Shown here in pieces: positions 8,789 through 57,237 of a stretch of DNA of 64,000 nucleotides. The position numbers were made by a program, and so were the translations under genes. Under the pieces are notes generated by a model, which saw only the letters and a list, made by a program, of their open reading frames with translations, ran no database searches and had not been told where the DNA came from. The stretch covers positions 186,001-250,000 of the forward strand of contig JAMXDE010000058.1 of the NCBI GenBank assembly GCA_026770025.1. Reading direction: 5' to 3'. Source of the stretch: Craspedostauros australis. Its lineage: Eukaryota; Bacillariophyta; Bacillariophyceae; Mastogloiales; Achnanthaceae. Numbering within the stretch: position 1 is the first letter of the stretch; each line of letters starts with the position of its first letter.

Positions 8789-8795
8789 TGTTGCA

Positions 8796-8820
8796 GTGTG
8801 TGAGTGTGAGTGTGAGTGTG
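8796..8820. repeat. GTGTGA microsatellite in the chitin synthase leader
   Basis: About four copies of a six-base GTGTGA unit lie directly 5' of the chitin synthase ATG on its transcribed side. Copy number could vary between alleles. Confidence 0.8.
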
Positions 8821-9063
8821 TTAGCTTGTGGTGGTTTGTGTCCTGCGTTGTGCTGCCCTGCGACGTCTGACGTCTGAGGAACCCTTCGTTCCAACTACTC
8901 ACACGATTGATAGAGCAGGGGAAGAGTGTTGTATGTCAATGTCCTGCAATGTCAGATTGTGGAGTCTGTGGAGTCTGCAAGATGTGACTGAGTTGGTCGA
9001 TCGTGTGACACACAAGCTGCCCTTTCGTTCTTTTCCAATTGCCTTTGTGTATGCCTCAGTGTA

Positions 9064-13200: not shown

Positions 13201-13239
13201 ATTGGCAGAGAGTGGAAAGTAAACCAATTGAGAGGAACG

Positions 13240-16200: not shown

Positions 16201-18372
16201 CCGCAGCGCAGATCGATCTCCATCTCCATTCCTCAAAAATCGGACTCCGACAAGCAGAAATCATCCTCGAAGAAGAACGGACCCACCATCATGTCGGCAA
16301 TGTCACCCTACGCATCGGAGCCACGACGCGGTATCAAGCAGGTCTTCAACAAGATGAAATCCATCGCCAACAGACGCGGCAGCACGGGAAGCAACAACAG
16401 CAGCGGCAAGAACAACAGCAAGCACAGCACCGGAAGCGGCAACATCAACAATTCGGCGCATAACGGCAGCAGCAACTCCGAAATCTCATTCACGCCGGAA
16501 TTCCCGGTGCTGCAGGCGCAACAACAACACTCGCAGGAGATCCAGTTCAACGGCAGCAACGAAATGAATTACTTCCACACCGACGAGCAGCCGATTCAGA
16601 ACGATCCCTTGCTCAAGGAGGCCATGAAGGAGATTCAGCAAAATCCGGCCGTTGGCAAGACCATCATGGAGGAACCCGAAGACGAGGAGGATTGGGACAT
16701 GAGCGAGGCAGAGCTCGGTGGAGTGCTGTCCGGGCAGCAGTACCTCGAGGTCAACCGCGGTGGCAACATTTCACCTGTCAGCGCATTGACCACCGGTTCC
16801 TACCTCCTTGACAAGGGCGGCAAGATGATGGATGACGAAAATGACGGCGGCCCGCACAAGGGTTTGAGGGAGGCCGCCTTCACCAAGCGACTGCCGCTCG
16901 AGGAGGACTTTATTTCCGATGATGACGAAGATGAGGACGGGGATGAGATGGAGAATGGCGACAACGATGGCGATCACCTCCATCATCAGCAACATCTTCA
17001 CGCTTCGGCTGGTTACCAGCAAAATGGTCAAATGATTCCGCAGGACAACGACCCCTACTACGGCAGCGGAACCCCGGTCGTCGATGACCAACAGTACCAG
17101 GAGCATATCGACAGCTTCAACCGCAGTCTCGGCCACACGCAGAATTTCAACCAGAACTACAACAACAGGAGCTCGAAGAGCCTGTTTGCGCAGCACCAGA
17201 AATCGTACACCACCTCACCGCAGCAACAGCAGAGGCGCAAGCAGCCACGCAACTCCGGCGGAAAATTCTCACCCAACGGCACGTCCTTCAAATCCATTCT
17301 CAGCACTTCCGGCCACCGCTCCGACCACGCCAATGGCATGATGAAGTCCAAAGTCCAGAACAATGGCGGCGTGACATTTTCCCACCGTCAGCCACCGCAG
17401 CCCCAGCGATCCACCAGGGCGCATCCCAACCCCCCGCGACGCACCACCAGTCGCGAGAAGAAGCACAAGCGCACCTACACCGTCAAGAGCCAGATCGTCC
17501 ACGACAAGTACGGAGATGGCGGCGAGTACACCGGCACTGTGTCTGTCGATGAAAACCTCCCGCATGGCTACGGCAAGATGCAGTACGAGAATGACCGTCA
17601 GTACGAAGGTGACTGGAAGGATGGAAGATGGTACGTGGCAATTTCGTGTTTGTGTGCTGGTGCTGCGTGACGTATTTGGACTGATTCATTGATGTGTTTG
17701 GGCTGATTGGTGACAGGAATGTGGAGGCAGCGCATAAACCCACATGGATGTCGTCTGCTCTGTCTTCTGCGCAGTGCAAAGCAGTCGTTGACCAATCGAA
17801 TGCCCCACTACTTCGACTGGAATCAGCGTTGCATGCACGATGCCAATCAATCTCGCAATGATCAACTTGCTCACCCTTGCATTTGGCCATCATCACTGCC
17901 TGCAACCCAAAATACACTCCGCACCCATCCGGTTCTCTCAATACTCGTATTCAGGCACGGATTCGGTCGCTGGATGAATCCAAACGGCGACTGTTACGAA
18001 GGCACGTTCGTGTACGATGCCCGCCACGGCAGCGGAACCTACACATGGAAGAATGGCAACGTGTACGAAGGTGATTTCTTCGAGGACAAACGCCAAGGCA
18101 ACGGCAAGTTCCTGTTCGCCAACGGCAACACGTACGATGGAGAATTCGTGAACGGTGTGTTTGAAGGCCTCGGACGGTACGAATTCGAGGGCGGCTTCTA
18201 CGAAGGCCAATGGAAGTCCGGCCGTTACCATGGCAAGGGCCTGCTCCTGTTCACCGATGGCAGCAGCTACAAGGGTGACTTCAAGGACGGGGTGGCACAC
18301 GGTCGTGGACAGGAGACAGACGCTCAAGGTGGCATCCGATCAGGATACTGGAAGGAGGGCATCGCGATTTAG
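13240..18372 (+). CDS. MORN-repeat protein 1 with coiled coil (2 exons)
   Basis: Exons are 13240-17630 and 17955-18372. The 324-nt intron has GTACGT/TTCAG ends and splits a TGG codon, giving WKDGRW-HGFGRW and about 1602 residues. The ATG at 13240 is the first in frame. Residues 1-200 are basic and Ser/Ala-rich. A Cys/His cluster at about 210-285 (GKCLRHPNMD, CACQP, CRICAS) shares the C-x-(R/K)-H-P core with MORN-2. A coiled coil lies at about 365-510, followed by long Asn/Ser/Asp-rich disorder. Seven to eight MORN repeats (YEGDW, YEGTF, YDGEF, YEGQW, YKGDF with HG-x-G cores) end the protein. MORN arrays usually bind lipids or proteins and act as membrane-cytoskeleton scaffolds; the specific role here is unknown. 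It converges on MORN-2, a paralogue. Confidence 0.9.
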
Positions 18373-23719: not shown

Positions 23720-24787
23720 CGACAACAGAACGCAGCACAACGCAACATGACATTACATATCATGGCGTGGCATGGCGTGAGCCTACTCGTAGTGTGATGT
23801 GCTAGTGGAGTATAATAGAATAGAGTACTGCAATGCTCTACTCTGAGGAGCAACATCCTTGTCTATTGACAGAGCATTGCGCTCTGCTTTTCTTGCGATG
23901 CAACGCATTTGGTGGACACAGAACGGCCTGTTCGTGGTTGCGAGCAAAGTACCCAACACAATTCCTGTCTGCCCTTCCACCCTGCAGCGGAATCACTCGG
24001 GTGTCATCCGGACATTCCGCATGATACAATTTGTTCTTTCCGTCATTTTCGTTTCCGAACAATCAGTCCTTCAGGCTTGCAAAGACCTCGTCACACTATT
24101 CGCGAGACACTACTACTCGTGAGCGTACTCCGACGTGGCAGCGTACCTTTGCACCGCATTTGATTGTCGTTGCTGTGGTGGCATCCTCCTTGTTGATCAT
24201 TCTTGGTGGAAACAGAGGATTCATCCCTTCGCCACCCTCATCCTCTTCTTTCTTCATTCACCTCCGCCATTCGCGACGACCAGGCAGGCAACCGAGAGGC
24301 AGGCAGAACCAACACCCCCACCAGTCTCCAGCAACGCCAACCGCACAGGCGAAGCATCCGTACCAGAACAGCCACAACCATCGCATCGTCACAAGGCCAA
24401 GCAACACAAAGACAGCGGAGGGAAGGCGCGTTTGCAGTTGGAATTGTGTTTGTATTTGCATTCGTGCGATCTTGGTGGAGAGGAGTGCGGACATCGGAGA
24501 GCTCTGAGTGCCATCGGTGTTGTCGAGAGAGCAGCATTGAAGGCAAGGTAGTCTGCTTGGACATACATACACCTTCAGAGGCATAGTTGAGACCCGACAT
24601 CTTCCCATCCAGGAGGGGTGATTTCGGACAGGCTATACTACCGCTGTCTAGAGACTACAGCAACAGATCGGAGTGTTGTCAGAGCACTCAGCCACTCTCC
24701 TCTGTCAGACTCTGTCATATAATACTCTGCAGGAGTGGAGTAAACAGAGAGTGGCTACAGAGTTGATACAGAGTGGATACAGAGACC
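23720..24787. other. intergenic region between the PRCC-like gene and MORN-3
   Basis: Roughly 1.07 kb between two plus-strand genes. Short overlapping open frames on both strands show no domain. The 150 bases before MORN-3 contain repeated GAGTGG/AGAGT units. No gene is supported. Confidence 0.45.
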
Positions 24788-27700
24788 ATGACACAGCAAC
24801 CTCGACGCAAGAGCATCGGCCTCCTGTCATCTCTGGCGAGATTCAAGAGCAAGTCTCACATTTTGCATGATGATGATGATGACAGCGACAGCATCGGCGA
24901 TCAGGACTTTCACAATGATGGCAATGATGCCCGTGGCCGCAGTCCTCAGCAACCGCAGCAGCAACAGCAGCAACACAAGCTCCACTTCTCATCTCCCTCC
25001 GAAACCAACAACTCGCCATCCAGATCCAAGAGGAGCGCATCACCTATGAGATCGGGAACGTTAGGTTTCGGCAAGTACCGCCCCTCCGTCCAACGCGAGA
25101 TAAAGAAGGAGAAGAAGCAGAGTCAGGGACGCAAGGACATGCTGTCTGCCTCGCTGGCCAGGCTGGGCGTGGGGGTCAGCTCCCGCAAGCTCATGGACGC
25201 TGGCAAGGTGGACGATGCTGCATCATCTCCGACGCCTGCCCAGGCCTCGCCCAGCCACTCCATGAGGCGGCGCATCCGCAATCCATTCAAGAGCACCAAG
25301 GGTGCCAAAGCCACCAAGGCCGCGAAGCAGAAAGACAAACAGGCTCCCGCTGGTTACGATGAGATGATGGTCTCCGATCATTCGCTGGACGAGAGCAGCC
25401 AGGGCAGCTTCACCAACACCAATTCCAACTACGATGCCGACATGAACACGAGCGGATCGGGATATGGCGATGGAGACCTCACCAATTCCGGTCATGACTG
25501 CACCAACTCCTCCTCCGCCCACCAGCGCAACATTTGGGATGACATAGGAGATGGTCAGAACTTTGGTATTTCGCCATCTCGGAATGGTGGGCATCCATCG
25601 CAGGCGCAATCACAACCGTACAACCCGCAGAATGATGAAATTCCACAATTCAACCCAGCTGCGGTACGCCCGCCTTCGTTGACCAATGTTAACCATGGCA
25701 GCAATGCCAACAGCGCAATCAACGTCAACAACGTCAACAACCCACCACCGACCACTTCTCCTCGGCGGACGCAATCCAAGCAACCAATTGTGCCGCCTCC
25801 ACCGCCACCACCGGATGACTCCGAGGACCATGAAATTCCGCTGCATTCACCAAGGCGCGGCAACGAAGGCGGCAACCCAAAAAGACCGGGAACGAGCCGA
25901 CGTCGGCAATCCAATGAATCCGAGGCAGGTTCCACCTCGTCATCATCGTCGCTGCGCAGGCAACGCTCCGTCAGGCGGATGCCATCGTCCAAGCCAAAGA
26001 GCCGCAGGCAGATATCGGCCACCGATTCTTCCAGAAGCAGCAGAAGCAGACGCAATACCTCCGTCTCCCCACCTCCCGACGGCGCAGCCGCGTCGCCAGC
26101 ATCCGTGTCTTCCAAATCGAGGCGCGTTCGCGTCAGCAGGTCTGCGCAAAAGACGGCGTCCCGCTCCAGCGACGATGACAACTCCTACCGAAAAATGCGC
26201 AGAAACATCTCGGCCAATTCGCAACTCTCCCAGTTATCGCAACAATCGAACCGCAGCACCTCCAAGTCGCCATCCTCCTACCGAACGCACCGTAAAACGC
26301 CAGGCAGGTCCATCTCCGCCACCTCCACAGCCACCACATCGTCGGCGGCCAGTTCGGTCGATGGTGCTGCGGATCCCAACGCGGCTGGTCAGTCATCGAG
26401 GAGGAATACCTCGTCGCGTCCACGCCGGCGTTCTTCGGTGCAAAGCGCAATGTCCGCCAAGACGGCACCGTCCGTCCCCACCAGCAAAGCGAAGGACAAG
26501 AAGTCCACGTCTCGTTACGCAAATCGCAGATCCTCCCTCTCCTCCATGCCAACATCGCAGCGACGCAATTCAAACGCCAGCACCGGCAGCGGCATGGACG
26601 ATCCCATCCTGGAGGGCAAGTTCCTCCTCCACGTCCTTCACACCTATCCCAAAGAGCAGTGCACCACCTTCGTGGAGCATTCCGAAACGGCGTGGCAGTA
26701 CTGCCTCCAGCAGCTCAAGTACCATGACTACTACAGCGCCATGAAACCGAGCAAGCTGGCGGAGCTGCAGTACATCCTGGAAGAAAAGGTGGCGTTGCAT
26801 CTGGACTCCATCCAGCTGTCCGAGCAGGATATGGCAACGTCGGCGAAGGGACGGCAGCACAGGCAACGCAGCCGAGCATCCGGCAAGAACGTGAAATCGT
26901 TATCTTCCTTCATGGACGATCAGAGCAAGGCGAAAGCACATGACAACGCTTACGATGATGCAAACGGAAACTTGAAGACGCCACCATCGCCGACACCCAC
27001 CATGAACTCCAACGCCAACAACAGCATCACGTTGCAAGCAGCAACGACCAATCAGGGACGAGCTGGCGGCGCAACGAACAACAACAGCTACTCCAATCCA
27101 TGGCAGAATTCCAACCGATCCTTCAATTCCTCCTACAATACCTACAACACCACGCACACCATACAGCCCACGCACAACAATTCACGTATTCCGCCGACCA
27201 GCACCGGCGGCGCCAAACAACAGCAGCAGCAACAGCAACAACAACAACAACAGCAAGGTTTGATGAACACCTCTTCCAGCACCCCGTACGTACCCACGGG
27301 ATACATGAACACGTCTGACGCGCTGTCCAACATGAACGCCGTTACCGAACCAGGCATCAACCTCAGTTTCACGCAGGGTTCCTCCAAGTTGCTGAACCCG
27401 CCATCCCAACGTGCCTTCGATGCCAATCCGCAGGATGAGGATGCCCGGGGATCGTCCAAGCGGCGCAAGCAAAAGAACAAGCGCGGCGACAATTACCAGG
27501 CGTTCCTCAAGAATGCGGCGCAAGACGGTGACAGCCAAAACAGCGACGAGGATGGCGAAGACGAAGAGGAGGAGCAGCTGATCCAGGTCACCAAGCTGAA
27601 TGTTCTGGACCCAGCAGGCAACCTGGGCACCTACAACGGCACGCTCGATGTCAAGACCGGCAAGCCAACCGGCAACGGACGCATCGAGTACTCCGGCGCG

Positions 27701-28159
27701 GGCTGGTACGAAGGTGAATGGTGGGACGGTGCGTGGAACGGCCAAGGACGGCATTGCAAGAGCAACGGCGATCTGTACGAGGGAACGTTCCTGGATCACA
27801 TCAAGCATGGATTGGGCCGCTACGAGTACGCTGACGGGACACGGGTGTTCACGGGGCGTTACGTTCAAGGCCAGCGCGTCGAGGGCACCATGCAGTACCA
27901 GGATGGCAGCAAGTACCAGGGACAGTGGTACAACGGAAAACGCCACGGTCGGGGCACGTATCAATTCAGCGACGGGTCCATCTACAAAGGCGAATTCGTC
28001 AAGGACCGCATCCATGGCGCGGGACAGCTGGTGTGGCCGGACGGGGGGCGTTATGTCGGAGAATGGAGCCTGGGCAAGCGGCATGGAACTGGACGAGAAT
28101 TCTTGGCGGATGGGACATTGCGCCGTGAAGGGACATGGAGAGATGGGTCGCCGATCTAA
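24788..28159 (+). CDS. MORN-repeat protein 3, intronless
   Basis: The protein is about 1123 residues from the first in-frame ATG (MTQQPRRKSIGLL). The N-terminal 600 residues are basic, Ser/Arg/Asn-rich and probably disordered, with an Asp run near residue 30 and a proline run near 340. A more ordered, unassigned segment lies at about 605-690 (LEGKFLLHVLHTYPKEQ to EEKVALHLDSIQL). A polyglutamine tract of about 14 residues follows near 815. The last 190 residues hold about seven MORN repeats (YNGTL, YEGEW, YEGTF, YQGQW, YKGEF, YVGEW). Unlike MORN-1 and MORN-2 it has no Cys/His N-terminal motif and no intron. A scaffold at a membrane or cytoskeleton is likely from the family, but no partner can be inferred. 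Confidence 0.9.
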   Translation: MTQQPRRKSIGLLSSLARFKSKSHILHDDDDDSDSIGDQDFHNDGNDARGRSPQQPQQQQQQHKLHFSSPSETNNSPSRSKRSASPMRSGTLGFGKYRPSVQREIKKEKKQSQGRKDMLSASLARLGVGVSSRKLMDAGKVDDAASSPTPAQASPSHSMRRRIRNPFKSTKGAKATKAAKQKDKQAPAGYDEMMVSDHSLDESSQGSFTNTNSNYDADMNTSGSGYGDGDLTNSGHDCTNSSSAHQRNIWDDIGDGQNFGISPSRNGGHPSQAQSQPYNPQNDEIPQFNPAAVRPPSLTNVNHGSNANSAINVNNVNNPPPTTSPRRTQSKQPIVPPPPPPPDDSEDHEIPLHSPRRGNEGGNPKRPGTSRRRQSNESEAGSTSSSSSLRRQRSVRRMPSSKPKSRRQISATDSSRSSRSRRNTSVSPPPDGAAASPASVSSKSRRVRVSRSAQKTASRSSDDDNSYRKMRRNISANSQLSQLSQQSNRSTSKSPSSYRTHRKTPGRSISATSTATTSSAASSVDGAADPNAAGQSSRRNTSSRPRRRSSVQSAMSAKTAPSVPTSKAKDKKSTSRYANRRSSLSSMPTSQRRNSNASTGSGMDDPILEGKFLLHVLHTYPKEQCTTFVEHSETAWQYCLQQLKYHDYYSAMKPSKLAELQYILEEKVALHLDSIQLSEQDMATSAKGRQHRQRSRASGKNVKSLSSFMDDQSKAKAHDNAYDDANGNLKTPPSPTPTMNSNANNSITLQAATTNQGRAGGATNNNSYSNPWQNSNRSFNSSYNTYNTTHTIQPTHNNSRIPPTSTGGAKQQQQQQQQQQQQQGLMNTSSSTPYVPTGYMNTSDALSNMNAVTEPGINLSFTQGSSKLLNPPSQRAFDANPQDEDARGSSKRRKQKNKRGDNYQAFLKNAAQDGDSQNSDEDGEDEEEEQLIQVTKLNVLDPAGNLGTYNGTLDVKTGKPTGNGRIEYSGAGWYEGEWWDGAWNGQGRHCKSNGDLYEGTFLDHIKHGLGRYEYADGTRVFTGRYVQGQRVEGTMQYQDGSKYQGQWYNGKRHGRGTYQFSDGSIYKGEFVKDRIHGAGQLVWPDGGRYVGEWSLGKRHGTGREFLADGTLRREGTWRDGSPI
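27218..27254 (+). repeat. CAG/CAA polyglutamine tract in MORN-3
   Basis: Mixed CAG and CAA codons encode an uninterrupted glutamine run between a Gly/Ala/Lys segment and GLMNTSSS. The codon mixing suggests moderate stability. Confidence 0.85.
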
Positions 28160-37974: not shown

Positions 37975-40900
37975 TCATTTGTGCTCCGTCGAAAAGTTGA
38001 TCACCTTGTTCACACCGCGTGGGAAGTCATCTCGCAGCTGCTTGCCCCATATCGTGCCGGCCATCGCCAGGAATCTGCCCATGAAGAGGTCGGACACGGA
38101 CCTCGTCTGATCGAACTGGAAGAGGTTCAGGGTAATGTGATCGCGGCCGTCCCAGATACCGACCACGTGGGCCTCCTTCCAACGCACGATGGCCACGGCG
38201 CCATCCCCGAGGTCGTTGTGCAGCATGGAGGACTCGAGGGTGTATCCCATGGACTCCTGGACGGCGAGGAGGATGGTGTCCATGTTCGGGCTGGAGTCGC
38301 GGTGGCCATCATCGCGGCCGAGCTGGTAGATGCTCTGACGTCCCAGCGCTTTCTGCTCCTCATACTGCTTGATCCCGGCGCTGAGGTCGTAGTCGCTCTG
38401 CTTGAATTCTATGGGCTGGAATTCCGTCTCGTTCTGGTAGATGAGGCCTCCACCTTCCAGCACGGTTGGGAAAATCTCGAGATCCTCACCGTACCTGGCA
38501 AGTAGCGCCTTTTCGACGTTGCGGACCTTCGGGAACGTGGTCTCCATGTCCACGTTGAGGATGTTGAATTTGACCCCGGAAGCATCGCGCGTGGAACCCT
38601 TGGGCTTGACGATCACCTCCGAACGAGTCAAGGGGTCCATATCCAGCTTGCGGCGCGTGTCGACGATGACATTCAACCTCCAGGTCTCGGCTCGCGAATC
38701 GGGCATGATGGACACGAGGGTGTGAATGACCGTGTCCTGGAATATGCTTCGTCGGAACGTGAAGAAGCTGCTGAAAATACGGGCCATGGCATACGGCGCG
38801 TCTCCGTCGAGGAAAGCGGCGTCAATGGCGATCCCGGTCTCTCTGACGATCTCCTTGATCTGGCTTTCCACCTCCCGCCTGCACTTGTGCAACTTCTTGC
38901 CGTTGGTGGGTTCCCCAAACTTGGCATCGGCGATATCTGAACAAATGTAGAGAGGAACGACATGGCCGACGTTGGGGTTCTCCTCGAGGGCCTTCTTGGC
39001 ATGGCACTGCTCACCGGAAAGACCGCAAAAGACCAAAGCGATGGATCCCTCGACGAACATGTCATCGACGATCGAATTCACACCGGTGGAGACCAGCTCT
39101 TCTGTGAAGATTCCTTCCACCGTGTCCAAGTTCCTCTCCGCAGCCGTCGGAGATGGCGCCATCTTTGTGGAATCCTTGTCGCAGTCGCGAGTGTGCGTAG
39201 TCAAATCAGGGCCGATCAGCTTGTCGTCCTCCTCCCAGGAATCGTTGCCGTACATGCCGGACGCCACGACGCGGAAGGATGACACGGAACCCTCCTTGAT
39301 GTCGTTGCCGCTGCCCAGCGCCTTGACAAGAGCGGCACGGGTTGCATCCATGCGCTCGAATCGACCCCACAAGTGTATGTCCAATGCCACGTACTTCTCC
39401 TCCGCCCATCGACGGGCGATCACGTACCCCTCCGCCATCAAGACCACCACCTCGAAGCTGGTCTCCGCGTTGTGTTCGCTCACGATGGATGTGTACTGCA
39501 ACGACTGCAACGACTGCAACGTCTCGACGATGGCGTCCTCCACCTTCTCCATCGGCAGCGAGCAGTTCTCAACGTCAACGATCATGACAACGCCCTCGCT
39601 CTTGCCGCTTCGAACACCATCCGTCTTTTGCTGTGCGGCGATTGCCCTCTCGAGCTTCTTGCAGGATTTGTCCTTCGTTCCATCATTGATCTTGTAATCT
39701 CTCCACAGCGGGTACTGATGAGGATAATCCTTCAGAGCCGGAAGCAGCAGGTTCTCGACACCATGATCCACCATGTCGTCCACGTGGTAGAAATCGATCT
39801 CGTTGCTGCCCATGATCATGGACTGCTCGCAGATCATCGGGCAGTCGTAGAAGTGGATGTCCACGGAATAGTCAAAGGCTCGGGAGAGCTGTCGGAAGTA
39901 CGGTTCGTTCTTGACCATGATGCCATCTGGCTTGACCAGCAACGCCATGGCATTCAAAATATCAAGGTGACGCGTCACCGTGAGGCTGGCACCTGTCTCG
40001 GAGACATCCACCATCACCAAATCGAACGAATTCATGTACTCCTTGGGCAGGAGCAGCAAGGATTTGGTGGCATCGCCGAACCACCACTCCACGCGGTCGT
40101 CGTGGAAGCTGGGTTCGGTGTGGAACCACTTGAAGGAATTGCGCACGACGATCTGATCGAGCTCCAGCGCGACCACCAGCTCCAGATCGGGGTACTTGAG
40201 GAACTCCTGCAGGATCATGTTGTCACCGCCGCCGATGAAGGCCACGCGCTTAACCTCCTTCAAATACCTGGCAGCATAGTTGATTGCGTACTCGTGGTAG
40301 TGCGGACGGTAGCTGTCGCAGATCTGGACCTCCTCATCGAGCTTCATGCAGATGTCGGTCTCCTGCTCCATGTCCTCCTGCGTGAGCTCGGCTTCATCGT
40401 CCTTGCCCTCCGGGAAGCGTTTGTAATACCAGATGGTCTGATACTCGGTGTGGATCGTGTCCAAGGTCGTGTGGCCCTTTGAGAAATCGAGCAGGGATAC
40501 GATGTCGCAGGAGAAGTCACGACCGTAGGGCATATCATTCTCGGCGTTGAGCGGGTGGTAGAGCTGATGCACCATGCACATGTCGTTGACTTCGGTCATG
40601 CAGTAGTACAGATCCTTGTCCTTGGGAAGCTTCTTGTCGTCGGTGAGGGAGTCGAATGCATTCGACAGCACAATGATTGCTGCATCGACGTACGACTTGA
40701 CAACGTCCCATTCCCTCTGCGGGATGACGGTTGTCGTGTTGCGTGCCACGGCCCATGCTTCACGCCCAAGGGCAATTTCATCGCTGCGTAGACGTCCCAG
40801 GCGACGCAGGTAGATCTTGAGGAAGTCGCGTCCTATTCGCACATCATCACCGTTCCAATCGACTGTGTACTTAGGTGCCTTGGACTTATCGTCCGAGTCA

Positions 40901-42279
40901 GAGATGGAGGTTGGATCAATGTCGATGTCCAAAATGGCCCGCATGCGGCGGAAGTCATCGTAGAAGAACGCCCACTGCTGCGGGTAATCTTCGATGAATC
41001 CGTAGTCACGCAACAGTTCTGCAGCAATGATTGATGAAATGAGGAATTGCAAATAAAGTATAGAAGGCCAATTGCAGTTCGAGGGATCGTTGTCGTCGTC
41101 GTCGTTGTTGGTGAAGAAAGAGAGGTGTGAGATAGAATTCATTGTGAAGAGCATGAAGAGCAACTTGGATGTGGACGAACCTCGTGCGGTGGGTACATTG
41201 ATGCATGCGATGATGATGCGATCGCCAACAATTGAACCAATCCAAGCGAGAGCAGAGCAAAATCAGAGAGCAGAGCAGAGCACAAAATCATATTACTCAC
41301 CAGGGGTGCCGTAGTAGTCGCCGCGTTCGCAATGTGGACAGTCGACGTAGGTCACGAAGATCTGTTCTCCCTTGGCGATGAATTTGGACGCGTAGACTTC
41401 GTAATCGTCGGGCTTGCGCTTGTCGGAGGTGTTTGGGTTGTAGCGATAATCAATATCGTCGTCTTCTTCGTTGAGGATACTGACCTTGGCATTACGCTGC
41501 TTGCCGTCATGGTGATTGTAGAGATCATAGACGGGGACGAGGACGTCTGTATCGGAGCGCGTGATGAAGGACAGCAGAGACCAGATCTCTTCATCGGATG
41601 TGCCGCCGTCGCAATTCTGACGCCAGTCCTTCTCGATCCAATGGACCGGCTCGAAGGGTGGCAGCATGGTGAAGATGGTCGTTCCCGTCGTCATGCGCTG
41701 GAAGAAGTCCCTGCCTTCGGGTGTCCAGGCACTGGGGATGAAGGGGGCCGGAATGGATTTGAGATACTTGAAGAAGGGTGCGAATTTGGAGGCATCTCCC
41801 AGCCGTATCTCCGCCATGACCTGTTTAATCCCATTGCACGGAAGAGTGTCAACTTCGATGTTGGGATTGGATTTTCTCTTCCACTCCGCTTCGTCGTCAT
41901 CCGCCAATGCCTCATCCTTGGGATCGTGGATGGCTTTATCGAATGAGATGCGAGCAAGCACCGTTCCGGGGTGTATGTCCTCTTTCGCGAACACGCCCAA
42001 CCCGAACGTGCTCTCGTCGTTGTACATGTTGGTGCCCGCAGGACGGATCTCCTGGCTCGGGTTGAAGTAACCGTACCCATCATCCTCCACCCAGCTGATC
42101 AGAGCGTTGATGTTGTCTTCGATGGTCTTGTCTACGCCGCTCGCAAAGCTGGCATCTGCTGCAGCCACAATGCAGGCCGATGGATGGAGGGCCACGCACA
42201 GCCATGCAAGCGACAGCGACAGCCATAGCGCCGGTCCTGGCACCCATCTTCTCGTACACCCCAAAGTTGGAACCTCCAT
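37975..42279 (-). CDS. secreted SET / aminopropyltransferase / AdoMetDC-like fusion protein A (2 exons)
   Basis: Exons are 42279-41301 and 41018-37975; the 282-nt intron (GTGAGT/GCAG, phase 1) joins YYGTP to ELLRDYGFIED, giving 1340 residues. A signal sequence (ALWLSLSLAWLCVALHPSAC) precedes a SET domain at about 50-330: FGLGVFAKEDIHPGTVLARI, VYDLYNHHDG, KGEQIFVTY, CPHC. Residues about 520-740 are spermidine-synthase-like: TEYQTIWYY, LDEEVQ, YHE (567), IGGGD (588-592), GDA, and VDVSET (about 663), where the usual DSTDP aspartate pair is D and E. Residues about 800-895 match bacterial AdoMetDC, but the ESH-x-SIHTW processing site reads EGYVIARRW (856-864). The last 440 residues are unassigned. 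It may methylate or aminopropylate lysines of wall proteins in the ER or Golgi; activity is inferred. It is a tandem copy of gene B. Confidence 0.9.
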
Positions 42280-43313
42280 CGTTCCTGTCGCTATCACCCG
42301 ATACCGATGCAGCTTCGGATGTGATGGTGAGAGTGCTGTGCAGATGAAAGCCGCTCTCTTGAATGTGTACGTATTATATTAGAGATGAGGATCTGGAGAA
42401 GCCAGACGTCAAATAGAGTAGTCGCAGAGCAGTGTGAGCACTTCGGTGTCCAAACGAGTATTGTGGGGTCGAGTGGAGTCCTTCGTGCCACTCATTCGAT
42501 TGTCGGATGTTTGTCGATGGCCCAAATGGATGATGAGTGCGCGTTGTTCTCATGAACTACCACCTACGATCTCGGTCTGTCCATCTCCTGCCGCACTCCC
42601 GGGTTCATGTTACCGTGTTCCCAAGTACGGGAGGCACAACGGAAGATATCTTTTCGTGTGGATGATGTGCGCCATGGCACGTTTCGACAGCCAGCAACAA
42701 GGCGCACCAAAGATGCCAAGTCGGCACACTTTGCCACATGGAAACGATCCGACAACCACTCCAACAAAGACATCGGGATTGGCAAATCACCACGTGACGT
42801 GACACCACGCCATTCCGCGAGCAATGCTCCGTGATCACGACTGATTTCGTGTCTCTTTGACACTACATAGTCGTTCAACGGATACAACGTTAAATAGGCG
42901 TTATATTGCATTCGGAACAACGTTCTCTTTTCGCAAGCCATTTCAATAGATCAGTCCAGCTCGTGTTTCACAATCAACGATTCCACATACTCAACGAATT
43001 ATTAAGCTAATTTATGAATATACCGCGGCCCCCACTGTCTCACACTTTCGCTTCACTTTTCGTTCTGCATTTCGCTCCGACGAAAGATTAGAATGGACCA
43101 GCAAAGACCGGAATAGCGCTGCTTTCAATGCTGCTGCCTGCTTGCTCAGCCTTGCTGCAAGCGCCCCTCTGTGCCCATGTGTGGAGGAGAGTATTGTTCT
43201 ACTCGACTCGGCTCGATGGAAGTTTGTTTTCATATTGTATCTTTGTTTTATTGTATTTCTCGTGTACTGTTGCTGTTGCTGTTGCTGTCACTGTCACTTC
43301 CAAATGTCACATC
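42280..43313. other. spacer between the two tandem fusion genes
   Basis: About 1.03 kb between fusion B (upstream copy) stop and fusion A start, both minus strand. It should hold the promoter of A. A TGTTGCTGTTGCTGTTGCTGTCACTGTCAC tract lies near 43268-43297 just 3' of gene B. No gene is supported. Confidence 0.45.
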
Positions 43314-46300
43314 CTACTTGTGCTCGTAGGAGAAGTTGATGACCCTGTTGATGCCGCGTGGCATGTCATCGCGGAGCTCTTTACGCCATCCTCCGTTCAC
43401 CATGGAGGCCAGGAACCGGGTCATGAACTCATCGGCGCGCGATCGTCTCTGATCGAAGCGGAACAGGTTGATCGTAATGTGGTTCTCACCGTCGAAAACA
43501 GCCACCGCGTTGCCCTCCTTGAAGCGCACGACCTCGACCATTCCCTTGCCAATCTTATCGTAGCTCTTCGCTGATTCGATCTTGGCGTTTGTGGACTCCA
43601 GAGTGGCGGCCATGATGGAGTCTAAGTTGGGGCTCACTCCGTCGGCCCCGCGGCGACTTTGGTCTCGGGTGAACTGGAAGACAGTCTGGCGACCGAAGGC
43701 GACCTGCTTCTTGTACTGTTCGATCTCGGCGCTCAGATCGTAGTCGCTCTGCTTGAATTCGATCGGACTGAAATCGTGAGTGTACATCAATCCACCGCCT
43801 TCGATGTAGGTGGGGAAGACGGCGAGCCTGTCGCTGTACTTGTCAGCGATGGCATCTTCGATGCTGCGAATGCGTGGGAAGGTATCCTCCACGTCCACGC
43901 TCACAACGTGGACGGCGGCGCCGGGGTCCTGGCGTTGTGCCGCCACTGGCTTCACGATCAACTCAGACACGATGAGCGGATCTATCTCCAGGACGCGGTG
44001 GATCTCACGGACGACCTCTCTCCTCCAGGCATCCTTCGATGTGTCGCGTTGGAACGAAGCGAAGTACTGGATGGTGGTGTCCTGGAAGATGTTGCGTCGG
44101 AAGGTGAAGAAGCTGGAGAACGCTCGGGCCATGCCGTACGGGGCGTCGGCATCGAAGATTGCACCGCCAATTATGCTGCGAGTCTCAATCACCACCTTCT
44201 TGATCTGCTGCTCCAGCTCTGCGCGGCATTCGTGCAGGGCATTGATTCTGGCAGCTTTGTCCGTTTCTTGCTTCTCGTAGCGAACGAACTCCATATCCTT
44301 GATGTTCTCACATGCGTGCAAGGTCACCACGTGGGCAAGGCGAGAGTGTTCCTGCAGGGTAGCAGAGGCTTCGCATGGCTTGTCCTCGGTGTCGCAGAAC
44401 ACGAGCACGGTGGAGCTCTCGTTCGCCAGGTTGTCGACGATGGCATCCAACGTGGTCTTGACGAATTCGGCATCGACGATGTCCTCGAGCTCGATTGGAG
44501 GCTGGTCAGTGACGGTGCTGGCCGGCGATTCGGCCGCCCTTGCCTTCTTCAGAGCCTCCACATTTTCATTCACGTGGCCGTCGCAGTTGCGAGTGTGCTT
44601 GGTGAGATCGGGCCCGATCAGCTCGCTGTCCTCCTCATACGAGTCGTTGCCATACATGCCGGACGCCACCACGCGGAACGATGATGCCGATCCCTTCTTC
44701 ACGTCGTTGCCACTGCCCAAGGCCTTGACCAAGGCCTCGCGAGTGTCCTCCAGCTTTTCGAAGCGACCCCAGCTGTGGATGTCCAACGCAACGTAGTTGT
44801 GCTTCGGCCATCGACGGGCCACGACGTAGGCCTCTGCTGTCATGACGACCACATCGAATCCATCCTCGGTGTTATCCTCGGAGATGATGGATGTGTATCC
44901 CAGCGCCTTCAGCGTCCTCATGATGACAGACTCCACGTCCTTCATCGGGATGGTGACATGCTCCACCTCGACGACCATGACGAGTCCTGCGCTCTTGCCC
45001 GAGCGCTCTTCATCGTCTTCTTCTTTCTGATGCTCGATACCAGCTCGAAGCTTCTCGCAAGACCCATCCTCGTTTGGATCGGTGTTCTTGTAATCACGCC
45101 ACAGGAAGTAGTCGTGAGGGTAGTCCTCGATCTCGGGGAGCAGCAGATTCTCCACACCATGATCGGTGAGGTCCTGGTGGAAGAAGTCGATATGGTTGCT
45201 GCCCATGATCATGGACTGATCGCAGATCATGGGGCAGTGGTAGAAGAGCACGTCGACAGCGTAGTCAAAAGACTTGGCCATCTGCGTGAAGTACGGTTCG
45301 TTCTTGACCATGATACCATCCGGCTTGACGAGGAGGGACATGGCGTTGAAGATGTCCAGGTGACGCGTGACGGTGAGGCTCGCTCCCGTTTCGGAGACGT
45401 CCACCATCACGTAATCGAAGGAGTTCATGTACTCCTTTGGCAAGAGGGTGAGGGACTTGGTGGCATCACCGAACCACCATTCCACACGATCGTCGTGGAA
45501 GTGCGGATCCGTGTGGAACCATTTGAAGGCATTGCGCACGACGGTCTGATCCAGCTCCAGCGCGACGACGAGCTCCAGATCGGGGTACTTGAGGAGTTCC
45601 TGGAGGATCATGGAGTCTCCGCCACCGATGAAGGCGGCCCTCTTGAGCTTCTTGAGATAGCGGGCACCGTAGTTGACGGCGTACTCGTGGTAGTGCGGGC
45701 GGTAGCTGTCGCAGATCTGGACCTCCTCATCGAGCTTCATGCAGATGTCGGTCTCCTGCTCCATGTCCTCCTGTGTGAGCTTGGCGTCGTGGGGCTTGCC
45801 CTCCGGGAAGCGCTTGAAATACCAGATCTTCTGATACTCGGTCTGGATGAAGTCCATGGTGGTGTGTCCCCTGGAGAAGTCGAGGAGTTGCTGGATGTTG
45901 CAGGAGAAGTCACGGCCGTAGGGCATGTCCGGCTCTTCGTAAAGGACGTGGTAGAGCTCGTTTCGCATGCAGGTGGCGTTGACCTCCTGCGAGCAGGGGT
46001 ACTGGGCGATGGGCTTGTTATCGAGGTCTTCATCCTCATCCGCCGCGTCCTCGTGGTACTCGAACTCGGCGTCATAGAAGACGTGGCTCATGACGAAGAT
46101 GCAGGTCTCGACGTACTTCATGACGGAGTCCCATTCGTGCTGGGGCACGAGGTCGGTGCGGTTGCGGGCGAAGGCCCAATCCTCGGCGCCCTTCTGCAGC
46201 TCGTCGCTGTAGAGACGTCCCAAACGGCGCAGGTACCACGAGGTGAGGTGGTGGGTCATGTAGCTGTCCTCACCCCTGTCCCACTCGACGACACCCAGCA

Positions 46301-47530
46301 GCTTCTTGTCCAGGGGGTTACGCTCGATAGACTCATCGAGCTGATCCTCTGAGGTGACGAGATGGACGGAGGTCATCTCCATGGTGAAAGACATGCGCTG
46401 ATTCGCGAAGTGATCAAAGTAGATATGCCATGTTTGGGGGAAGTCTTCGATGAAACCGAAGTCTCTCAACATTTCTGTTGTCGGGCGGAGCGGGCGCAGT
46501 TAGAGCGGAGATGAGCGCATGGTGGGAAACGGTTAGCTGATGATGGCGTATGGGACCAAAACCAATGGAGTAGGCGTAGAGTCGAGTACGCGTAGAGTGC
46601 AATTATCCATACATGCAATCAACGAGATGATGGCAACGGCAACGGCAAACACATAATTGACGACATTTTCGAGAAGCGCTCTGGGAACGTACCTGGTGCC
46701 CCGTGACGCTCGTCTCGATCGCAGCTCGGACAAGAGGAGTAGTCGACCGTGATCTGGTGACCCTTCTCGATGTCGTAGGCCGCCTTGAGCTCGTAGTAAT
46801 CATTGTGGTAGACCCTGCCACCGACGTTGTCGACTTCGGAGGCGTGGTTGTAGAAATCGTAGATGGGAACGAGGGTGTGAACGTCGGCGCGTGTCATGGT
46901 CATGACGACGGCGTGCAGCTCCTCCTCGCTGGTGCCGCCGCCGCAGTCCTCGACCCAATCGTCGTCGATCCAGGCCGTCGGTTCCTGCGGTGGCATGTAG
47001 GTGAAGTGGGTGGGCCCAGCCACGGCCGCTTGGAAGAGGTCCTTTCCAGCGTCACTGAATTCGCTGGGCAGCATGGGCGGATGCGGCGCGCTTCGGAGGA
47101 AGCTGGTGAATGGGGCGTACGCTGAGTTGTCGCCGAGACGCATCTCCGCGAGGAGCTTGCGGATTGTGCTGCAGTACAAGACGCCCCTGGTGTTCCTTCC
47201 TTCTCTCGTCTTGTTGATCTCGTTGGGATCGGGCGTGATGAGGACCTCCCATGGGATTCTGGCCAGGACCTCGCCCTTCTTGATGTCGTCCGCGGCGAAG
47301 ACGCCGATGCCGATCTCTTCGGAGGAGTGGAAGGCAGTCTCGGGTGCGTACATGATCTTCTGCTTGGAGCTGAAGAAGCCGATGTCGAAGGTCTGCACCC
47401 AATCGATCACCTCCTGCGCCTGCTTGAGACGGAGATCGTTCTCGTCAGCGATGTAGCTGGCCTTTGCGGATCCGCCGCAGCAGCCCAGGAGCGCGATGCT
47501 GGCGAGCAACGCTGTGGATGGGAGCTTCAT
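43314..47530 (-). CDS. secreted SET / aminopropyltransferase / AdoMetDC-like fusion protein B (2 exons)
   Basis: Exons are 47530-46693 and 46474-43314; the 218-nt intron (GTACGT/ACAG, phase 1) sits at the same place as in gene A (GAP-EMLRDFGFIED), giving 1332 residues. A clean signal peptide opens the protein (MKLPSTALLASIALLGCCGG). The SET domain has IGIGVFAADDIKKGEVLARI, VPIYDFYNHASE and KGHQITVDY. The aminopropyltransferase-like domain has TEYQKIWYF, LDEEVQ, YHE (541), IGGGD (562-566) and VDVSET (638-643). The AdoMetDC-like domain (about 775-870) reads EAYVVARRWPK where active enzymes have ESH-x-SIHTWPE, and HSWG where they have FTCG, so both the pyruvoyl-forming serine and the catalytic cysteine are absent. 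The C-terminal 440 residues align with gene A up to the shared ending NFS-x-EHK. It probably acts in the secretory pathway. Confidence 0.9.
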
Positions 47531-48931: not shown

Positions 48932-50503
48932 TCAATTGAAATCCAACATGCGCATGGGATCTTTGCGCCAGCACAGCCGACGCGACAGGACCGGTGCCTT
49001 GTTCGCTGCCGCGTCTCCTTTGCCTGCTTGCTGCTTGCGTTGCTTGGCTTCCGCCATGCCGATGGCGGCATCGAGATCCCTCTGCAGCGCATCCATGGAA
49101 TCCTGCGACAATCGAAAATCGAACAACGCCGCATTCTCCAACATGCGCTGTGGTGTGACCGTCTTGGGAATGATGGCGCAGGAATTCTCCAGCGCCCATC
49201 GCAACAGTACCTGAGCCGGCGTTCGCTTCACCTGTTCTGCGAGATGTAACACGGGCGGGGCGTTGCAGAGCTTCGTGGTGACGTGCGCCGTTCTGGCAGA
49301 CGACAGACGCGGGTAGACCAGCTTCCAAAAGTTCTTGCCGGTGTCCTGTCCTCCCAATGACGCGTAGGCCTGCACGACGATGCCCTCCTTCTTGCAGTAG
49401 GCCAGAAGATCGTCCTGTCGGTACAGCGGATGCAGCTCGATCTGGTTGACGGCTGGCGGCCAGATGGTGGCGGTCTTCTTGAGCTCCTTGAGGTGCTCCA
49501 CCGTGAAGTTGGAAACGCCGATGGTTCGGAGCTTGCCCTCCTTGACGGCGTCTTCCATGGCGCGCCACGTTTCGCTGCGCTTCTTGGGCATATCTTGCTC
49601 TGCGGTGGTTGCGTAATGCCACGGTCCCTTCTCCTGCAGGACATCCTTCCTGCGCATTATCGTGGAGTAGGCCGGACCGGGCCAGTGGATGAGCCAGAGA
49701 TCGATGTGGTCGGTGTCGAGACGCTCGAGGCTGAGATTCAGGCATTCCTTGGTCTTGTCGTAGCCGTGATACTTCCTCCAGTGCTTGGACGTGAGGAAGA
49801 CCTCGTCCCTGCTGGCGATGATGCCCTCCTTGACGGCATCCTGGATGGCGAGACCCACCTGAACCTCCGTCGTCTCGCCGCCATAGATGAAGGCCGTGTC
49901 GATGGCGCGGTACCCGCAGCGCAGAGCCTCCAGTGTGCAGTGCCTGGACTTTTCCTTTCCCAGCTTGTAGGTCCCATACCCCAGCCATGGCAGGATGTTG
50001 CCGTTTCCGAGATCAGCGCCGTCCGTCGGTGACCTTGCATCCGTGCTGGCGGTCGCACGGAATGGCGTTGCCCGTTCCTTCTGTGGAGATTCAGATTCAG
50101 ACGGTAGCACTGATCCTGACGCTGACATTGACGCTGGCACTGACGCGTTGTCATCATCAGTCTGCGACTTCCTCTTCGCCTTTCTGGCATCATCCATGCT
50201 GTCTATCTTGTTCATGCCGCCCGTGTTGTCGGCGTCGTTTGAAGTGGAGGATCGGAGCCCGCGCTTTGTCATCGATGCACCATGAACGAACCGACCAGCT
50301 GCTGCTATTCGCGCCTGACCCAATTGCTGAGAGGAAGGAAGCAGAGCTGGAGCGAAAGCGCTGCCGAGACGAGCCGATGTTGCGACCTCGGCAGCAAAGA
50401 GGATCGGAAGCAGGAGGGGGCACCTTCGTCTTGCAACCACGATCATGTTCCACACATGTGCAGCAAGTTCATTGCGATATCCCTTCACCAATGAAGCAGC
50501 CAT
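48932..50503 (-). CDS. plastid-targeted aldo/keto reductase
   Basis: Single exon, 523 residues from the ATG at 50503. A second ATG at 50446 (MIVVARRRCPLLLPILFAAEV) gives a better placed signal peptide and may be the true start. The motif SARLGSAFAPALL fits the ASAFAP cleavage site of diatom plastid bipartite presequences. After about 165 residues of linker comes the AKR barrel: LPWLGYGTYKLG, the tetrad in AIDTAFIYGGE (Asp, Tyr), LTSKHW (Lys) and LIHWPG (His), then GKLRTIGVSNFTVEHL, AVNQIELHPLYRQ and cofactor residues near AIIPKTVTPQRMLEN. It would reduce carbonyls to alcohols with NADPH, plausibly detoxifying reactive carbonyls in the plastid. Two small insertions sit between LIHWPG and the TIGVSNF segment and near the cofactor loop. 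Head-to-head with the LRR gene. Confidence 0.93.
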   Translation of the reverse strand: MAASLVKGYRNELAAHVWNMIVVARRRCPLLLPILFAAEVATSARLGSAFAPALLPSSQQLGQARIAAAGRFVHGASMTKRGLRSSTSNDADNTGGMNKIDSMDDARKAKRKSQTDDDNASVPASMSASGSVLPSESESPQKERATPFRATASTDARSPTDGADLGNGNILPWLGYGTYKLGKEKSRHCTLEALRCGYRAIDTAFIYGGETTEVQVGLAIQDAVKEGIIASRDEVFLTSKHWRKYHGYDKTKECLNLSLERLDTDHIDLWLIHWPGPAYSTIMRRKDVLQEKGPWHYATTAEQDMPKKRSETWRAMEDAVKEGKLRTIGVSNFTVEHLKELKKTATIWPPAVNQIELHPLYRQDDLLAYCKKEGIVVQAYASLGGQDTGKNFWKLVYPRLSSARTAHVTTKLCNAPPVLHLAEQVKRTPAQVLLRWALENSCAIIPKTVTPQRMLENAALFDFRLSQDSMDALQRDLDAAIGMAEAKQRKQQAGKGDAAANKAPVLSRRLCWRKDPMRMLDFN

Positions 50504-54969: not shown

Positions 54970-57237
54970 CTACGCGTCGGTGTCGCTATCACTGTTGCTG
55001 CCGCCAAGGCCGTCGCTGTTGTCCCCGTCAGCGTCGTTGCTGCCTCGTGACGTTGCGGGCTTGTCCTTGTCCTTGGCGGAGCTGCTGTTTCCCTCTTCTC
55101 CTGGCTGGTCTGCCGCTGTGGTTATTCTGGAACCGCCATCTGCGCCGCTCTTTGGCGATTGCGACGTAGACGTGGATGCCTGGCTTTGCCTTCGTCCATT
55201 CGGCGACGAAGTCTCGCCGCCTTTGTTGTCATTGTCCGGGCTGCGGCTCTCGCCGGAGGCTCCTGATGTTTCCTGCTTCTGCTGCCTTCGCTGCTGCTGC
55301 TTGGGGACGACCTTGACGGCGACGCGGCGCATTCGTCGGCACAGCTCGGCGCGGTCCTTGACGAAGAGCTCGTGGTAGTAACCACCCCTGGCTGGGCCCG
55401 TGTTGATGAGCTCGAAGCCGTAGAGGTTGAGCTGTCGCTTGAAGCTGCTGAGGCGGGACTGTCGGAAGTAGAGCGGGACGATCTCCTTGAAGAACTTGTC
55501 TGGCTTGTGGATGGCGAATGCTCGGCCGTTGGCGACGAAGGATATGACATCCGATCGCCCGGCTGCCTCGACCTCTAGAAGCAGTCGGTGGAGCTTTTCC
55601 GGGAAGGGTTCGATGACACCCCCGCGCATCCTTCGGGACCCGTCCCTGTGGAAGAGAGAGTGGGGCGACGGAAGAGGGAGCTCGGCCGCTGCTGCCGCCG
55701 CGTTGAGCGGATGGTGTGGATTGCCCAAACCCACGGCCGCCGCCGCAGCAGCGGCCGCCGGGTTGATGTTCATGTTCATTCCACCCATGGCGCCCATGCC
55801 ATTCATGCCTCCCATTCCAGCCATCCCAGCCATGCTCCCCATTCCGGCCATGTTCATGGTTCCCCCCATGCCGGCCATGCCCGCCATCCCGCCCATGTTC
55901 ATGGCGGAACCGCTGATGGGACTGCCTGCCGCATTCATGTTCATGTTCATTCCCATGCCCATCCCTTGGGCTCCAGCACCACCGACGCCGGCGCCCATGT
56001 TGAAATTGTTGACCGGGTTGTTGGCGGACGCGTTGCCGTTGGGCATGTTCATCATGTTGTTCATGAACAGCCTTTGCTGCAGGAGATCGGTGGCGCTCGT
56101 GGCGTTGGCACCTGCGTTGCCGAGGAAGGGGTTGTTCATGGCGACTGCGGCGGCGGCAGCCGATTGGTTGTTCATGCCAGACGCTGCGCCAAGCCCCTTC
56201 TGCTGATCGAAGAAGGATTGCAGCAGCGAGGATGAGCCTGCCCCGGCTCCGTTTGTTCCGTTGTTGTTCGTGCTGTTGCTGGCAACGCTGTTGTTGCTGT
56301 TGACATTGACATGGGCGTTGTTGTTGCCATTGGCATTCATGGCATTGTTCATGGCATTATTCATGGCATTGTTCATCGCACTGTTCATGGCGTGGTTCAT
56401 GGCGTTGCCCAAGTTGTTCATGTTGTTGTTGTTGTTGGTGCCGCTGCTGGCGTTGGCATTGGGGCTGCCGTTGGCGTTGTTGGAATTGTTGCCATTGTGA
56501 CTTCCGCTGTTGACGCTGCTGTTGCTGTTGTTTGTGGCATCATTGCCGTTGGCATTGGTGTTGTTGGCACCACCTGCATTGAGCTGCTGGAAAGGATTGC
56601 CGCCCTGCATGGTGGAGTTGACCTGCTGCTGCAGCTGCTGCAACTGGAGCTGTCGTTTGAGGTCGACGAGGTTGTTGACGTTCATGCCGATGGCCGGCGA
56701 CATGGGGGCGCCTCCTGTTCCTGCCATGAGGCTTGAGTTGTTGGCGTTGAGGGTGTTGAGGCTGCCGAAGTTTCCTGCAGCTGCAGCAGCCGCGGCTGCT
56801 CCCATGCCTCCCATCATGGCGTTCATGGAACCAGGGCCGGATGCGCCAACCATGGAGCCGTTGTTCGATGATGCCGCTCCGTTTCCCAGACCGTTCAATC
56901 CGGTCATGAGCTGCTGCGCTGCTTGGTTGGGAACTCCGGCGCCCTGCAGCAGACCGTTTCCGAAGTTGAAGTTTGGGTTGCCTGGGTTGTTTGCGGTGGA
57001 GCCGCCTAGGCCAGCTCCTCCATTCCCGTTGTTGCCGGTGCCACGCAGGAAGGCGGAGACGGAGCCGTTGCCCATCTGCGCGTGATTGCCCGCAGCGAGT
57101 GCGTTGAGGGATGGACTGCCGAGGCCGACTCCGTTGTTGCCTCCTCCCCCGCCGGCTCCTGGGCCGCCACCGCCTGATGATGGATCGAAGGCATTCGTGA
57201 GTGCCGCAGCGGCAGAGTTCGTGTTCATCACGATCAT
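54970..57237 (-). CDS. HSF: heat shock transcription factor 1, DNA-binding domain near the C-terminus
   Basis: 755 residues, single exon, ATG start (MIVMNTNS). The HSF DNA-binding domain lies at about 545-642: FPEKLHRLLLEVEAAG, ISFVANGRAFAIHKPDKFFK, then the recognition helix RLSSFKRQLNLYGFELI and GYYHELFVKDRAELCRRM. This matches the winged-helix-turn-helix core closely. In plant and animal HSFs the domain is N-terminal; here about 540 residues of Asn-, Gly-, Met- and Ala-rich sequence precede it, with long NN-A and MNMAGM repeats. No clear hydrophobic heptad for trimerisation follows; the last 110 residues are Ser/Asp/Gln-rich. It should bind nGAAn-type elements and regulate transcription. 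HSFs are the most expanded transcription-factor family in diatoms, so its target set need not be heat shock. Confidence 0.95.
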   Translation of the reverse strand: MIVMNTNSAAAALTNAFDPSSGGGGPGAGGGGGNNGVGLGSPSLNALAAGNHAQMGNGSVSAFLRGTGNNGNGGAGLGGSTANNPGNPNFNFGNGLLQGAGVPNQAAQQLMTGLNGLGNGAASSNNGSMVGASGPGSMNAMMGGMGAAAAAAAAGNFGSLNTLNANNSSLMAGTGGAPMSPAIGMNVNNLVDLKRQLQLQQLQQQVNSTMQGGNPFQQLNAGGANNTNANGNDATNNSNSSVNSGSHNGNNSNNANGSPNANASSGTNNNNNMNNLGNAMNHAMNSAMNNAMNNAMNNAMNANGNNNAHVNVNSNNSVASNSTNNNGTNGAGAGSSSLLQSFFDQQKGLGAASGMNNQSAAAAAVAMNNPFLGNAGANATSATDLLQQRLFMNNMMNMPNGNASANNPVNNFNMGAGVGGAGAQGMGMGMNMNMNAAGSPISGSAMNMGGMAGMAGMGGTMNMAGMGSMAGMAGMGGMNGMGAMGGMNMNINPAAAAAAAAVGLGNPHHPLNAAAAAAELPLPSPHSLFHRDGSRRMRGGVIEPFPEKLHRLLLEVEAAGRSDVISFVANGRAFAIHKPDKFFKEIVPLYFRQSRLSSFKRQLNLYGFELINTGPARGGYYHELFVKDRAELCRRMRRVAVKVVPKQQQRRQQKQETSGASGESRSPDNDNKGGETSSPNGRRQSQASTSTSQSPKSGADGGSRITTAADQPGEEGNSSSAKDKDKPATSRGSNDADGDNSDGLGGSNSDSDTDA

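Follow-up and report, generated by a model that had tools for sequence, protein, structure and literature searches.

A tandem pair of diatom-type fusion genes joining SET, aminopropyltransferase and AdoMetDC-like domains in Craspedostauros australis

Introduction

Diatom genes for S-adenosylmethionine decarboxylase (AdoMetDC) and aminopropyltransferase (APT) can occur joined to a histone N-methyltransferase domain, in fusions that may both make and N-methylate long-chain polyamines (LCPAs), as passages on diatoms in two papers have it (PMC3820600, PMC12029483, citing Michael 2011). Here, we describe two genes of this type, called copy B and copy A, which stand in tandem at positions 37975-47530 of a 64-kb stretch of DNA from Craspedostauros australis (contig JAMXDE010000058.1 of assembly GCA_026770025.1, positions 186,001 to 250,000). 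That whole stretch is called the window.

Diatom fusions of this decarboxylase (there abbreviated SAMDC) with APT are also described in part of PMC6356823, with functions still to be characterised, and a passage of PMC12803844 puts the number of APT fusion proteins of Nitzschia inconspicua at 32. The same source notes that animal spermine synthase has lost the AdoMetDC function, the domain being essential through dimer formation (PMC12803844). Diatom-specific SET-domain methyltransferases offer a second point of reference. A role for them in wall proteins and LCPAs is suggested in passages of two papers (PMC11151724, PMC11554505, citing Nemoto 2020), the second of which reports that 12 SET-domain genes are inhibited by salinity in Skeletonema.

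A diatom fusion of SET, APT and AdoMetDC, with a proposed role in the synthesis and methylation of LCPAs, is already in print, in the outline that these passages give. A search of the full-text literature for a diatom SET domain joined to spermidine synthase, or to an aminopropyltransferase, found none; most subscription papers lie outside its coverage, and the result is no evidence of novelty. What the present analysis adds is the loss of the AdoMetDC catalytic residues in both copies, alongside an APT that has kept its donor-site and catalytic residues.

Comparison with the described systems is direct in outline. As in the fusions of Michael 2011, to the extent that these are described in the citing passages, the methyltransferase, APT and AdoMetDC-like parts of copies A and B stand in one chain. 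They differ from that description in having a catalytically dead AdoMetDC-like part and about 390 extra residues. With the SET methyltransferases of Nemoto 2020, compared by description in the citing papers only, copies A and B have the SET domain in common.

Gene structure

Copies A and B are most likely diverged tandem paralogues of a known diatom-type fusion enzyme. Both lie on the minus strand, copy B (47530-43314) followed head to tail by copy A (42279-37975, with its ATG at 42279), with 1034 nt from the stop codon of B to the ATG of A. A sequence-only reading of this DNA had placed a gene pair here, each member encoding a single chain of about 1335 residues once spliced at one conserved phase-1 intron. 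The gene models agree with it: they lie at 37975-47530, on a strand that it had not given, they encode 1332 amino acids in B and 1340 in A, both spliced frames are open from end to end with no internal stop, and each gene has a single intron, in phase 1 and at an identical position.

Exon 1 (46693..47530 in B, 41301..42279 in A) carries a signal-peptide-like N-terminus and most of SET. The intron, GT-AG in both, runs for 218 nt in B (46475..46692, GTACGT...CAACAG) and for 282 nt in A (41019..41300, GTGAGT...CTGCAG). Exon 2 (43314..46474 in B, 37975..41018 in A) carries the end of SET, APT, the AdoMetDC-like domain, a C-terminal region and the stop codon. The intron interrupts the C-terminus of SET, giving ...YGTP/ELLRDYGF and ...HGAP/EMLRDFGF in the two copies, where the slash marks the junction. 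We take an ending of the (E)LLRDYGF or (E)MLRDFGF type to be the usual end of a SET core. Because the intron lies inside SET, splicing is required to complete that domain, and the remainder of SET shares its open reading frame with APT.

The two introns have no similarity to each other (local score 17.0, equalled or exceeded in 341 of 500 shuffles), and each contains at least one stop in every frame. The coding bases flanking the junction match at 72 of 120 positions (30 of exon 1 and 90 of exon 2, ungapped and without a shuffle control). Over exon 2 as a whole, the two products are 59% identical. Pairwise comparison of A with B by the NG86 method covered nine segments. The ratio of nonsynonymous to synonymous rates (dN/dS) is less than 1 in all of them except a short linker, which is saturated; synonymous divergence (dS) is 0.8-2, which makes all of these ratios rough. 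No further copy was found in the window by tblastn with both proteins, where all other matches had an expectation value (E) of 2.5 or worse.

Domains of the fusion proteins

The order along the chain is the same in both copies: the signal-peptide-like N-terminus, SET, a spermidine-synthase-type APT, the AdoMetDC-like domain and a C-terminal region of about 390 amino acids. The order SET, Spermine_synth, AdoMet_dc, which the sequence-only reading had predicted for a domain search, is the order in which Pfam matches them in both. The E values in A and B are 4.3e-8 and 2.3e-10 for SET, 2.5e-13 and 1.1e-14 for Spermine_synth, and 1.9e-5 and 2e-6 for AdoMet_dc. All six matches lie above the gathering score, that of AdoMet_dc in copy A marginally so (25.4 against 25 bits). 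Thus, all three domains are found in one polypeptide, the SET part by way of the predicted splice. The best NCBIfam model for APT (8e-19 and 6e-19 in the two copies) and that for class 1b AdoMetDC (1.2e-4 and 1.7e-4) score far under their cut-offs, which makes the fusion proteins distant members of these families.

The APT core lies at 45300..45695 in copy B (residues 260-391 of the exon-2 product) and at 39910..40302 in copy A (residues 239-369). It is the most conserved part of the chain between A and B, with an identity of 0.85 and a dN/dS of 0.13. In an alignment with Plasmodium falciparum spermidine synthase, residues Q93, Y102, H103, E104, D127, E147, D178 and D196 are all kept. We take Q93, D127, E147, D178 and D196 of that enzyme to serve the donor site or catalysis, and D199 to lie on the acceptor side. 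With donor-site and catalytic residues kept, the APT domain looks usable.

The AdoMetDC-like domain (44709..44939 in B, 39310..39579 in A) presents the opposite picture. In an alignment of copy B with the Thermotoga maritima enzyme (1tlu), S63 is replaced by Ala, H68 by Arg and C83 by Trp; the corresponding columns of copy A, located by way of its alignment with copy B, are occupied by Gly, Arg and Trp. In the T. maritima enzyme, S63 is converted into the pyruvoyl group, and H68 and C83 are catalytic. The domain nevertheless remains conserved between the copies, with an identity of 0.68 and a dN/dS of 0.28.

The fold itself is that of a class 1b AdoMetDC. Structure prediction, which the sequence-only reading had proposed for each domain, bore out this part of the chain in the copy B model and yielded, for the C-terminal model, no match at E of 0.001 or below; both predictions were built from two sequences only and are poor (mean predicted local distance difference test scores of 40.6 and 45.4). 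For the 567-residue copy B model, the one with the mean of 40.6, the aligned range is taken to be the AdoMetDC-like part. The best five Foldseek matches are class 1b AdoMetDCs at probability 1.00, with E from 5.3e-4 to 1.8e-3, and the two with E at or below 0.001 are both of this class. The fourth, 1tmi, is titled as the S63A non-processing mutant. The sixth, a RuvB-like helicase at probability 0.41, is regarded as noise. The seventh and tenth are chains of human spermine synthase (3c6k), at probabilities of 0.94 and 0.75.

Thus, the fold is held in common with T. maritima 1tlu, 1tmi and 1vr7 and with Aquifex aeolicus 2iii, all at Foldseek probability 1.00. Class 1b AdoMetDC, however, keeps the pyruvoyl-forming Ser together with H68 and C83, and the fusion proteins have none of the three. 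To judge from these residues, neither copy has a live AdoMetDC-like domain, and neither could make decarboxylated AdoMet by the known mechanism. Without these residues there can be no pyruvoyl cofactor, and the chain is therefore not a self-sufficient machine leading from AdoMet to polyamine; a working AdoMetDC within the chain is not supported. The neofunctionalised SpeD proteins that decarboxylate ornithine and arginine are likewise pyruvoyl-dependent, according to a passage of PMC10407285, and these activities are, for that reason, also barred. If the domain is a pseudoenzyme, the decarboxylated AdoMet must come from elsewhere.

Animal spermine synthase (3c6k) likewise has an APT joined to a dead domain derived from class 1b AdoMetDC. 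There, the AdoMetDC-like domain precedes APT, SET is absent and the product is a known small molecule; in copies A and B the order is reversed and SET is added.

The SET domain is matched by Pfam at residues 74-264 in copy B and 93-311 in copy A. By eye, the motifs GxG and NH can be made out, as can a Tyr encoded upstream of the intron and a [Y/F]GF encoded downstream of it. Searches against solved structures matched none with a SET domain, the lone match being a penicillin-binding protein at E 0.96.

The C-terminal region (43317..44495 in B, 37978..39144 in A) has pieces with identities of 0.46-0.52 and dN/dS of 0.30-0.31 between the copies. Searched as four pieces in Pfam, and in NCBIfam, it gives nothing above cut-off, and Foldseek of its model (the one with the mean of 45.4) gives no match at E of 0.001 or below. 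In copy B there is a weak hint of degenerate AdoMetDC-like repeats. When the AdoMetDC-like profile is compared with the first piece, the second piece and the whole C-terminus, 4, 8 and 7 of 200 column shuffles, respectively, score at least as high as observed; when the APT profile is set against the middle piece, the count is 46 of 200. Column shuffling also destroys the periodicity of strands and helices, and these counts flatter the hint. With hhalign, a second AdoMetDC-like unit is given E values of 0.096 and 0.11, at probabilities below 1%, and such a unit is a hint only.

Targeting

Signal peptides, judged here by eye and hydropathy alone, are plausible in both copies, as the sequence-only reading had claimed. 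The signal-peptide-like stretch runs by eye from residue 1 to about 24 in B and to about 43 in A, with basic residues, then a hydrophobic stretch, then small residues at a plausible point of cleavage. In copy B, no other 11-residue window of the chain is as hydrophobic as this stretch (2.46).

Other features fit a disulphide-bonded secreted protein, without proving one. The mature A and B proteins have 18 cysteines each, 17 of them common, as against 59% identity over exon 2, and three N-glycosylation sequons are common to both. The isoelectric points of the two copies, 4.76 and 4.82, fit polycationic partners. The chain ends in EHK, not KDEL. The proteins may be located in the secretory pathway, where they might act on silaffin lysines. 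For comparison, the diatom-specific SET methyltransferase family is reportedly targeted to the endoplasmic reticulum.

Searches for relatives and neighbouring genes

Scans of viral and genome contigs gave pattern matches and no confirmed relative, which is weak evidence of absence since just two sequences went into the patterns. With the APT part of copy B, tblastn of plasmids found two records, both Leptospira speE (28.2% identical across 44% of the query length), and tblastn of phage records found no match.

Elsewhere in the window are a chitin synthase (1590-4877, minus strand; Chitin_synth_2, E 2.7e-158), chitin being made by some centric diatoms, and a Gly/Asn/Ala-rich DNA-binding protein of the heat-shock-factor type (54970-57237, minus strand). 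Two very long low-complexity open reading frames lie on the plus strand, one (13228-17670) with a MORN-like stretch at its end, by eye, and one (24773-28159) with MORN repeats. A Gly/Ser/Gln-rich frame of 1010 residues with repeated GRSKSPG (5870-8902, minus strand) has no Pfam match at E 0.001.

Proposed function and its alternatives

The most likely reading, on what the predicted proteins contain, is a two-activity amine-modifying enzyme of the secretory pathway, combining N-methylation with aminopropylation. In the scheme that we infer, the fusion chain would enter the secretory pathway. SET would move methyl groups from AdoMet onto amines, and APT would move aminopropyl groups from decarboxylated AdoMet onto amines. 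Jointly, the two would build and methylate oligo-propylamine chains for silica formation, either free or on silaffin-type lysines. The AdoMetDC-like pseudoenzyme would serve as a scaffold, probably retained because it helps the protein to dimerise, like its counterpart in animal spermine synthase, and decarboxylated AdoMet would be supplied by another enzyme. Taken whole, this picture of secretory diatom-type fusion paralogues, in which SET and APT build polyamines for silica upon a pseudoenzyme scaffold, seems to us about evenly poised between right and wrong.

Several observations weigh against it. Among SET, APT and the AdoMetDC-like domain, SET differs most between A and B, with an identity of 0.42 and a dN/dS of 0.43, and its final [Y/F]GF has Phe in copy B and Tyr in copy A; SET activity is thus not assured in both copies. 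In copy A, the N-terminal stretch (2.09) is surpassed in hydrophobicity by one other, which lies within the AdoMetDC-like part (2.15). The position of P. falciparum D199 is Glu in both copies, a conservative change that need not abolish activity, and the loop ahead of YHE is unlike the DEF of that enzyme; from these two differences, the acceptor of APT may be something other than an ordinary polyamine. The main text of two silicon-response papers on Thalassiosira pseudonana contains neither "aminopropyl" nor "SET domain" (0 occurrences of each), and these papers lend regulation by silicon no support.

The alternative that survives best concerns the substrate. This could be a free polyamine, with APT elongating chains based on putrescine or ornithine and SET N-methylating them to give free LCPAs. 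SET domains characterised so far, however, act on protein lysine or histidine, and we consider a free substrate possible but on balance somewhat unlikely. It is, of course, the published reading of such fusions, in the passages of PMC3820600 and PMC12029483. It also draws on Prymnesium neolepis, a silicifying haptophyte, which, by the account in part of PMC4742977, has lysine-linked N-methylated LCPAs and a transcriptome in which the modified polyamine genes of diatoms have no homologues. We take this to tie the fusions to diatom-type chains. In Entomoneis, as a passage of PMC12533330 reports, a fusion of spermidine synthase and SAM decarboxylase rises with aluminium-linked silicification.

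A second alternative, which we consider improbable, would make the proteins plastid-targeted methyltransferases of the Rubisco-LSMT type, with the APT and AdoMetDC-like parts serving only as scaffolds or substrate binders. The spacing of SET and its final [Y/F]GF look, by eye, like those of the Rubisco-LSMT/SETD class, and an aromatic residue one or two places past the likely cleavage (ADA-SF in A, AKA-SY in B, by eye) is faintly like the +1 position of heterokont plastid proteins. However, the sequence past the cleavage is acidic and SET follows close behind; plastid targeting is less likely because there is no obvious transit-peptide-like stretch ahead of SET. A relic APT is also disfavoured, since no other domain is as well conserved and the donor and catalytic residues are intact. 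In the product of a neighbouring aldo/keto reductase gene (48932-50503, minus strand), GSAFAP stands behind a hydrophobic stretch at the N-terminus. We take this motif for the heterokont-type plastid signal, found in algae whose secondary plastid is of the red type; together with the chitin synthase and heat-shock-factor genes, it makes a diatom the likely source of the DNA. A SAFAP DNA pattern, written after the motif was seen, has one match where 0.05 are expected, at least one match arising in 5 of 100 shuffles. Neither A nor B was seen to have the motif that is so clear in this neighbouring gene.

The weakest alternative, a highly improbable one, is an artefact of the gene model, in which a secreted SET protein and a cytosolic APT-AdoMetDC-like protein come from separate transcripts; copy B does have an exon 2 that is an open reading frame with an ATG at its start (46472), from which the second protein would begin, but this codon is CTG in copy A, and a SET completed only by exon 2, across unrelated introns with conserved coding on both sides, appears to answer the worry for the most part.

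Significance

To our knowledge, none of the enzymes that add methyl groups or propylamine chains to silaffin lysines and LCPAs has been identified biochemically. The gene pair offers two exact models, with APT and SET as candidate activities, and would eliminate the AdoMetDC-like part as the source of decarboxylated AdoMet. The published idea of one chain that does everything becomes testable, with the prediction that there is a separate decarboxylase and a route by which the donor enters the vesicle.

The boldest form of the two-activity reading would make the protein the long-sought modifier of silaffin-type lysines, one secretory chain both methylating and aminopropylating them, with the dead domain holding the enzyme together and decarboxylated AdoMet being imported into the vesicle. 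This we think doubtful. If it were true, an enzyme with the APT fold that aminopropylates protein lysine would represent a type of protein-modifying enzyme not seen before.

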